From the IMG/VR virus record IMGVR_UViG_3300031785_002134, positions 1 through 26,793 of that record: a stretch of DNA of 26,793 bases. One strand, given 5' to 3'. How positions within the stretch are numbered: position 1 is the first letter of the stretch; each line of letters starts with the position of its first letter. Made by a program: the position numbers and the translations under genes. This DNA is from a virus. Shown one piece after another: positions 3,044 through 4,469 of this stretch. The notes beneath the pieces were generated by a model. That model made no database searches, was not told where the DNA came from, and was given only the letters and a program-made list of their open reading frames with translations.

Positions 3044-3126
3044 TTAATATGTTAATCACTTTTTTTAAATTAAATGCATTTTTTCCTTTACATTTGCTAA
3101 AAACTATGGTAGAATATATCTATAAT
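3044..3126 (+). promoter_or_regulatory. Early-type sigma70-like promoter cassette, copy 2
   Basis: TTTACA at 3087-3092 and TAGAAT at 3110-3115 are 17 bases apart. The upstream block TTAATATGTTAATCACTTTTT (from 3044) matches copy 3, but an AT-rich insert of about 20 bases separates it from the -35 box. Transcription should start near 3122, about 240 bases before the next well-supported ribosome site. This makes a long leader. Confidence 0.75.
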
Positions 3127-3358
3127 GGAAAAAGAATTAAATAAAAAAATGAAGGAAAATAATTATGACATAGCTATAAGTAACCACCAGGATGTTGTGA
3201 TGGACAATGAAATAACGAGAAGCACATCAGGATTTACAGGTACGGAACTACCCAGGGAATCATCGGTGGAGTATAAAACGTTCCCTAGCCTTACCATGGG
3301 GCGGACCCATCGGTCGGTAAGGTTAGATGTCTTGATCGCCGCCCCACAGAATTTGGAG
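3122..3358 (+). ncRNA. Candidate structured RNA leader with a GC-rich pseudoknot
   Basis: From 3241 to 3345 the GC content is about 55 percent, well above the AT-rich surroundings, and the segment is strongly self-complementary. CTAGCCTTACC (3285-3295) pairs with GGTAAGGTTAG (3316-3326) as an 11-pair stem with one G-U. Its loop segment TGGGGCGG (3297-3304) pairs perfectly with CCGCCCCA (3339-3346), giving an H-type pseudoknot. A competing inner hairpin ATGGG/CCCAT (3296-3300/3306-3310) is also possible. Upstream, GGTA/TACC (3239-3242/3249-3252) closes a loop whose GGAAC can pair with GTTCC at 3280-3284, in competition with AGGGAA/TTCCCT (3254-3259/3281-3286). The element ends just before the GGAGG ribosome site (3354-3358) of the next gene. 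It could be a cis-regulator, a riboswitch or a small RNA. I cannot match it to a known class. Confidence 0.5.
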
Positions 3359-3373
3359 GCAGCATATGCCTAG
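3125..3373 (+). CDS. Doubtful 82-codon ORF across the structured leader
   Basis: An open frame begins at ATG 3125, only nine bases after the promoter -10 box, so a transcript from that promoter would be essentially leaderless for it. The frame uses many codons otherwise uncommon here (CCC, CGG, GGG, ACG, TCG), all in the stretch with strong RNA pairing. The predicted product has no recognisable motif and runs a few bases into the next gene. I think the open frame is a side effect of GC-richness in a structured RNA, but a real small protein cannot be excluded. Confidence 0.2.
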   Translation: MEKELNKKMKENNYDIAISNHQDVVMDNEITRSTSGFTGTELPRESSVEYKTFPSLTMGRTHRSVRLDVLIAAPQNLEAAYA

Positions 3374-3578
3374 TCCATCAGAAATACAATCAATGCTTCC
3401 ACTATTTCTTCAACTCCTCTTCTTCGCGGTAGCTGGGGCATTGATTGTAGGTGTATTCTTTTCCATAGTTGGTTTTTTCTTTCGTAATGCAATTATAATT
3501 ATGATTATCATTGGTTTACTTTTTGCAGTCAACTATGGATATGTTGATATAACAAAAATTTTTGGAGCAGTACAATGA
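3366..3578 (+). CDS. Small two-helix membrane protein
   Basis: This 70-residue, very hydrophobic protein has two predicted membrane helices, about residues 11-39 and 41-56, separated by a single Arg-Asn turn (F-F-R-N). A short polar N-terminus (M-P-S-P-S-E) and a short C-terminus follow the usual layout of small phage inner-membrane proteins. The ATG follows GGAGG by seven bases and lies directly downstream of the structured leader, so its expression may be controlled by that RNA. It overlaps the next gene by ATGA. Two-helix proteins of this size include holins, but the location in an early-type block and lack of a nearby endolysin make that only one option. Confidence 0.7.
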   Translation: MPSPSEIQSMLPLFLQLLFFAVAGALIVGVFFSIVGFFFRNAIIIMIIIGLLFAVNYGYVDITKIFGAVQ

Positions 3579-3940: not shown

Positions 3941-4003
3941 TTAATATGTTAATCACTTTTTCCTTTACATTTGCTGAAAAGTGTGGTAGAATATAACTAT
4001 AAT
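3941..4003 (+). promoter_or_regulatory. Early-type sigma70-like promoter cassette, copy 3
   Basis: TTTACA (3964-3969) and TAGAAT (3987-3992) are 17 bases apart, with the shared upstream block TTAATATGTTAATCACTTTT from 3941. This is the most compact copy, and it drives the run of genes from 4025 towards gp33. Confidence 0.78.
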
Positions 4004-4223: not shown

Positions 4224-4469
4224 ATGAAAAATCCTATAGCAAAATATTTAATGTGCTCTTATGCATATTATAAACTTGATAAAAATTTAATAACTGATCA
4301 AGAGTTTGATCAGTTAGCAAAACATATCTTGGATAATTGGGATGCTATTGATCATCCACACAAATATCTAATCACCAAAGATATGTTACAGGCGGGTACT
4401 TACTTAGGTGAATATCCAAATATTGTAAAAGGCGCAGTCGGAGATTATATAAGGGAGAATAAATTATGA
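4224..4469 (+). CDS. Small protein with weak resemblance to the N-terminal Ia domain of NAD-dependent DNA ligase
   Basis: This 81-residue protein contains A-Y-Y-K-L-D-K-N-L-I-T-D-Q-E-F-D-Q-L, which recalls the Y-Y-x-x-D-x-P-x-I-S-D-x-E-Y-D-x-L motif that binds NMN in bacterial NAD-dependent ligases. The rest of a ligase is absent, so it cannot be an active ligase. Short proteins of this type occur in marine T4-like phages without known function. It overlaps the next gene by ATGA (4466-4469) and lies five bases after the previous stop, in one operon running to gp33. The ligase resemblance is a motif observation only. Confidence 0.7.
   Translation: MKNPIAKYLMCSYAYYKLDKNLITDQEFDQLAKHILDNWDAIDHPHKYLITKDMLQAGTYLGEYPNIVKGAVGDYIRENKL

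Follow-up and report, generated by a model that had tools for sequence, protein, structure and literature searches.

A new family of structured phage RNA headed by a conserved Shine-Dalgarno sequence and mini-ORF

Positions 3165-3346 of a 26,793-nucleotide stretch of viral DNA (the window), which belongs to an uncultured marine T4-like phage, carry an RNA element of about 180 nt that is present in about 100 IMG/VR viral contigs, ranging from short fragments to a 328-kb phage. Comparison of the relatives establishes its fold, the mini-ORF at its 5' head, its occurrence as one copy per contig and the change of its neighbouring genes, and it likewise establishes that helix P3 is a variable hairpin usually locked by a pseudoknot (PK2). 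Judging from the sequences, we give an even chance to the explanation that this is a new family of phage RNA, which would be made from its own early-type promoter and act as RNA, not as one gene's dedicated leader, and in which the mini-ORF would hold a ribosome. The invariant Shine-Dalgarno sequence and mini-ORF heading so intricate a fold point to a ribosome-linked function.

Fold of the RNA and its variable 3' module

The initial annotation had described a structured RNA with an H-type pseudoknot at 3239-3358. Its 11-pair stem (3285-3295/3316-3326; CTAGCCTTACC/GGTAAGGTTAG) and its 8-pair stem (3297-3304/3339-3346; TGGGGCGG/CCGCCCCA) both lie where it had put them, in a stretch that is GC-rich as described (approximately 51-52% GC in 120-nt segments, compared to 25-30% around it). 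Both stems also passed the test of compensatory change, being kept by paired changes in homologous viral contigs. The extent had to be revised, as the RNA begins near 3165, about 75 nt further upstream, and the pseudoknot is only its 3' end. From 5' to 3', the order of elements is promoter, Shine-Dalgarno sequence, mini-ORF, linker, P0 5' strand, P1 arm, P2 arm, P0 3' strand, UARA, PK1 3' strand, P3 and PK2, with the following positions in the window:

3087-3115, + strand: early-type promoter TTTACA-17 nt-TAGAAT, from a consensus scan
3125-3373, + strand: overlapping ORF (MEKE...) spanning the RNA from end to end, confined to the window's clade; doubtful as a coding frame
3152-3156, + strand: Shine-Dalgarno sequence AAGGA of the mini-ORF; a match of at least 4 nt in 63 of 63 members checked
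3165-3173, + strand: mini-ORF ATG ACA TAG (Met-Thr-stop); in 64 of 64 members, in seven sequence variants
3174-3183, + strand: conserved linker from the stop codon to P0, ending in GTAA (CTATAAGTAA)
3184-3188, + strand: P0 5' strand CCACC, pairing with 3265-3269
3191-3198, + strand: P1 5' strand with one bulged T; 7 pairs, all with two-sided changes
3222-3228, + strand: P1 3' strand, partner of 3191-3198
3231-3234, + strand: P2a 5' strand GATT, pairing with 3258-3261
3239-3252, + strand: P2b hairpin GGTA-CGGAAC-TACC, whose loop supplies PK1; 11 variants, nearly all fully paired
3244-3248, + strand: PK1 5' strand GGAAC in the P2b loop, pairing with 3280-3284
3258-3261, + strand: P2a 3' strand AATC, partner of 3231-3234
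3265-3269, + strand: P0 3' strand GGTGG, from the swap test and two-sided changes
3280-3284, + strand: PK1 3' strand GTTCC, adjoining P3 and pairing with 3244-3248
3285-3295, + strand: P3 5' strand; full partner in 40 of 49 distinct variants versus 4% swapped
3297-3304, + strand: PK2 5' strand; at least 7 contiguous pairs in 39 of 41 versus 24% swapped
3316-3326, + strand: P3 3' strand, partner of 3285-3295
3339-3346, + strand: PK2 3' strand, partner of 3297-3304
3355-3359, + strand: Shine-Dalgarno sequence GGAGG of the downstream gene, read from the sequence
3366-3578, + strand: downstream gene for a 70-aa hydrophobic protein without a Pfam or PHROG family

At the core, P0, P1 and P2 form a three-way junction, and there is a second pseudoknot, PK1. 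The P2 arm comprises P2a (GRUU/AAYC), an internal loop and P2b, a 4-bp hairpin with the 6-nt loop NGGNNN, and the GGNNN of this loop pairs with the PK1 3' strand, which is separated from the P0 3' strand by the A-rich UARA. The unpaired nucleotides UACA, CARG and UARA are nearly invariant.

Alignment-free swap tests were run for P0, P1, PK1, P3 and PK2. The results showed full pairing of P0 in 30 of 34 distinct variants, compared to 6.2% swapped, and of PK1 in 40 of 42 variants, compared to 14%; for P1 the values were 33 of 40 for a member's own partner and 21% for swapped ones. P0 had been spotted by eye and was tested afterwards. For P3, the 8 nt at the start of the long stem were tested. 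For PK2, a threshold of 5 pairs was non-discriminating (61% swapped) because of G and C runs, and it was raised to 7 pairs. P2a is perfect in 61 of 61 members (GATT/AATC in 32, GGTT/AACC in 29). In alignment A1 (n = 38), which is purely sequence-based, 88.9% of pair cells held standard pairs, versus 70.1% when shuffled and at most 53% when slid. The covariance-model alignment (n = 43), which leans towards structure, gave 97.8% standard pairs and a covariation of 0.751 versus 0.232; each of the five P0 pairs and of the seven P1 pairs is altered on both sides. The swap tests agree with the alignments, and together with the compensatory changes they support the proposal of a structured RNA with a pseudoknot.

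Folding energy of the single sequence gave no support relative to shuffles (z = -0.39 for 3239-3358; z = -0.20 for 3160-3350), and the claim is therefore decidable by comparison alone; the folding energy of one sequence (z near 0) can overlook an RNA that is strongly conserved. From the sequence-only alignment, RNAalifold predicted P2a and P2b alone: in that alignment P0 and P1 do not line up between clades, and PK1 is a pseudoknot.

The GC-rich P3/PK2 pseudoknot is the most variable module of the RNA. In most members it measures 10-12 bp plus 7-8 bp; it is TGATC/GATCA in the L088 type and GCGAA/TTCGC in L344, and PK2 was not found in L092. L025 and L029 have near-identical 5' cores and different P3/PK2 modules, which suggests that the 3' module is exchanged by recombination. 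Four loci (L346, L127, L135 and L095) carry additional non-coding, stem-forming sequence directly 3' of PK2, which could be a second, optional domain of this RNA. The alternative pairings that had been taken as a sign of a switch are possible in the window's sequence, yet family-wide they do not exceed swapped controls (PK2 5' strand: own 8.5, swapped 7.8, sd 3.0), and a switch by alternative pairing was rejected on this ground.

The mini-ORF and the longer overlapping frame

We examined the sequence ahead of P0 in the 64 distinct members with enough upstream sequence. An ATG followed by an in-frame stop after one to three further codons stands just before P0 in every one of these, although the 64 are not independent events because the members are related. 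ATG ACA TAG accounts for 53 members, ATG CGG/AGG CGA TAA for 4, ATG TTG TAG, ATG TTA TAG and ATG GAT TAC GGA TAG for 2 each, and ATG AAA GAA CCA TAG for 1. Several lineages have altered the length or codons of the mini-ORF and retained its start and stop. In a sample of the same contigs, 3.1% of all ATGs have both such a stop and a Shine-Dalgarno sequence. The distance from the stop to P0 is 9 nt in 46 members, 10 nt in 14 and 5 nt in 4, while the codon content varies. The conserved UAG belongs in part to a conserved stretch possibly kept for RNA structure. The arrangement is that of a minigene leader (Shine-Dalgarno sequence, start, and stop after one to a few codons) and also that of a ribosome shunt, in which a stable structure comes immediately after a short ORF.

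Clear protein-level conservation of the frame 3125-3373, which the initial annotation had named as evidence against an RNA, was not seen. That the region codes for protein and the stems are incidental is the least likely of all explanations considered. It could appeal to the 18 sequences of the window's clade, in which the frame is open, begins with MEKE or similar, varies in length by multiples of three and mostly ends overlapping the start of the next gene. Across the 61 members, however, the frame is closed in 41 and open in 20, and in the 69-nt core common to the 20 open members the variable columns number 7, 10 and 10 at codon positions 1, 2 and 3, with no third-position excess; coding as the explanation was rejected on these two results. 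Every helix, moreover, shows compensatory changes, and the product has no Pfam family. We take the ORF to be a clade-specific overlap, possibly translated, and not the source of the conservation. It starts at or near the predicted transcription start and is possibly leaderless. A programmed bypass to the ACA of TTTACA was also rejected, since a reading of the alignment gave no consistent open frame after it.

Occurrence, promoter and neighbouring genes

For the 70-aa protein encoded downstream, probably a membrane protein, IMG/VR contigs yielded at least 93 relatives and INPHARED no match. In approximately half of the first 80 relatives the gene is immediately preceded by a similar leader, in which the two stems recur with changed sequence; the others have a different gene there. 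DNA patterns for the conserved leader stretch returned 85 and then 102 stretches; a loose pattern returned 120, and the loci fetched from it held no credible motif or covariance-model match. A pattern search of GTDB genomes gave one match, the metagenome-assembled contig L342, which is probably viral, with an ATPase resembling one beside the RNA in phage contigs. INPHARED isolates yielded no copy, BLAST with the leader giving AT-rich chance matches only. At least some of the host phages are members of the T4 superfamily: of 18 contigs tested, 7 have gp32 and two more, among them the 328-kb one, have gp23.

When 37 distinct viral records were searched with the covariance model, a single credible copy appeared in each of 32 RNA-bearing contigs, those of 328 kb and 131 kb among them; with the single copy of the window the total is 33. 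No copy was found by this search in five related contigs, so the RNA is not universal. It would normally occur once per genome; the count itself is per contig, as the contigs are mostly fragments.

A promoter with a start near 3122, as proposed earlier, is plausible: TTTACA (3087-3092) and TAGAAT (3110-3115) are separated by 17 nt, with TG before TAGAAT, and the homologues examined also have promoter-like sequence ahead of the RNA. The window has three early-type promoters that resemble one another (TTTACA-17-TAGAAT, with TG), at 2601-2629, 3087-3115 and 3964-3992 in repeats D1/D2, and of these the middle one alone precedes the RNA.

No terminator was found between the RNA and the downstream gene in the window. 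Across the family, the next gene may encode a small membrane protein, a 70-aa soluble protein, a ligase-Ia-like protein or others. L342 and L130 have a TTGACA-16-TATAAT-like site separating the RNA from the gene (consensus scan), and a promoter-like site was read by eye at the same place in L344 and L346. The earlier view that a small membrane protein is the regulated gene is not supported by these results: the RNA precedes unrelated genes in other phages, is present once per contig and is sometimes separated from the gene by a promoter-like site. A dedicated leader of one gene was rejected because the neighbouring genes differ and each contig has one copy. A riboswitch is expected as an aptamer before functionally related genes; here the core is conserved, but the genes are unrelated and the RNA is single. 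One copy, a differing next gene and intervening promoter-like sites fit a free-standing, ribosome-engaging RNA better than a switch, and together with the extra sequence after PK2 and a tRNA cluster near the RNA in L291 they point to an RNA that would matter in its own right.

Possible modes of action and related systems

In the explanation that we prefer, transcription would start from the early-type promoter, and a ribosome would initiate at the mini-ORF and terminate at once. Because of the stop-to-P0 spacing and the usual footprint, the leading edge of the terminating ribosome would stand approximately at the foot of P0, and the ribosome would thus stay at the 5' end without unfolding the RNA. 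Held there, it may protect the RNA, the compact fold may meet the translation machinery early in infection, or both, and this protection or delivery would come before read-through into whichever gene is next. The ends of the RNA, its abundance and its ribosome binding are what we infer in this account. A bolder version, in which the RNA captures ribosomes on its frame of two to four codons against the knotted fold and either remodels the infected cell's translation in trans or shunts ribosomes, we regard as doubtful; ribosome capture by such a fold is, to our knowledge, not a known mode of action of a phage RNA. If trans-acting, the RNA would represent a new way for phage RNA to handle host translation; if cis-acting, it would be a portable control module for early genes.

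A cis-acting leader stays a serious rival, possible but clearly short of an even chance. It would bind a metabolite or protein, and P3/PK2, about 20 nt before the start codon, would block or admit the 30S subunit. Against our preferred explanation, no terminator was found after the RNA and most loci do have a ribosome-binding site within a few tens of nt of it, as in a cis-regulatory leader. In favour of the leader, PK2 in the window also ends 19 nt before the ATG at 3366 and 8 nt before its Shine-Dalgarno sequence, and the pairing of a conserved core and a variable 3' module recalls an aptamer plus expression platform. Such a leader is harder to reconcile with downstream genes for unrelated small proteins, a single copy per contig in place of a regulon, the promoter-like sites that intervene in four loci and the lack of a conserved competing pairing. 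Less likely than this leader, and doubtful, is a mere stabiliser, in which the mini-ORF and knots park a ribosome at the 5' end and only protect the early transcript, like the axe-txe and LEE operon minigenes. The universal Shine-Dalgarno sequence and mini-ORF at the 5' end would suit this role, which overlaps with the preferred explanation, and minigenes have been reported to stabilise mRNA in cis (PMC8708949), but a covarying three-way junction with two pseudoknots seems more than protection needs, and one copy per contig also speaks against it.

We consider it improbable that ribosomes terminate on the mini-ORF before P0, skip the fold and restart at the downstream ribosome-binding site. 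Although the layout is that of the plant pararetrovirus shunt (PMC5902531) and the stop-to-P0 spacing is conserved, the downstream genes have their own Shine-Dalgarno sequences, and in L342, L130, L344 and L346 a promoter-like site intervenes. A self-cleaving or self-splicing ribozyme, which the complex pseudoknotted fold and nearly invariant unpaired UACA, CARG and UARA might suggest, is less probable again, with no Rfam ribozyme or intron match and no exon-like coding continuity.

Rfam 15 gave no family for the window at the gathering cut-off and two chance matches only at E up to 5, and none for eight divergent loci at E up to 1, in agreement with the initial annotation, which had recognised no known riboswitch class. 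The family was not found in the open-access literature searched. Its novelty is that of an RNA family, since phages were already known to have structured RNAs, and minigenes too had been described. The T2/T4 gene 32 leader has a pseudoknot upstream of a ribosome-binding site in a T4-like phage, whereas the new RNA precedes other genes, and the gp32 gene of the window's phage starts at 5958. The lambda bar minigenes are two-codon minigenes. Others, axe-txe mg2 and LEE1, combine a Shine-Dalgarno sequence and a two-codon ORF in a leader and are reported to stabilise or tune the RNA (PMC8708949). The likeness of the new RNA to them is one of workings, without homology, and that paper does not describe minigenes as joined to a conserved three-way junction with pseudoknots. 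In the plant pararetrovirus shunt, a 5' short uORF ends before a stable stem (PMC5902531). In the new RNA, too, a short ORF comes to its end just ahead of a stable fold, but the shunt involves eukaryotic scanning ribosomes and a large stem-loop, and there is no homology.

The structured RNAs manA (RF01745) and wcaG (RF01761), from marine metagenomes and T4-like phages, were found by covariation and proposed to act upstream of genes (PMC2864571). The RNA described here shares with them its structured nature, its occurrence in marine T4-like phages and its covariation, and differs in having no Rfam match in the window or the eight loci, unrelated small downstream genes and a mini-ORF head. ROOL and GOLLD are elaborate RNAs of phages and prophages, of unknown function and often near tRNA islands (PMC12286853). 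They resemble the new RNA in their elaborate fold but are much larger, and the new RNA has no match to them in Rfam. We know of no conserved mini-ORF in ROOL or GOLLD. At L291:7768-8002, genes for tRNA-Arg, tRNA-Pro and tRNA-Cys lie less than 200 nt downstream of the RNA, recalling the placement of ROOL and GOLLD; no tRNA or tmRNA gene was found in the window.

Two other genes of the window were noted. Positions 926-2179 encode a 417-aa cytochrome b (Pfam Cytochrome_B, E 3e-79; Cytochrom_B_C) in this T4-like phage. The gene is also present in the related contig L061, and among INPHARED phages only one record, of a Helicobacter phage, has such a gene, at its end. A phage with a respiratory gene merits attention. 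Positions 4224-4469 encode an 81-aa protein that resembles the N-terminal NAD-binding (Ia) domain of NAD-dependent DNA ligase only (PF22745, E 4e-8) and is conserved in related phages.
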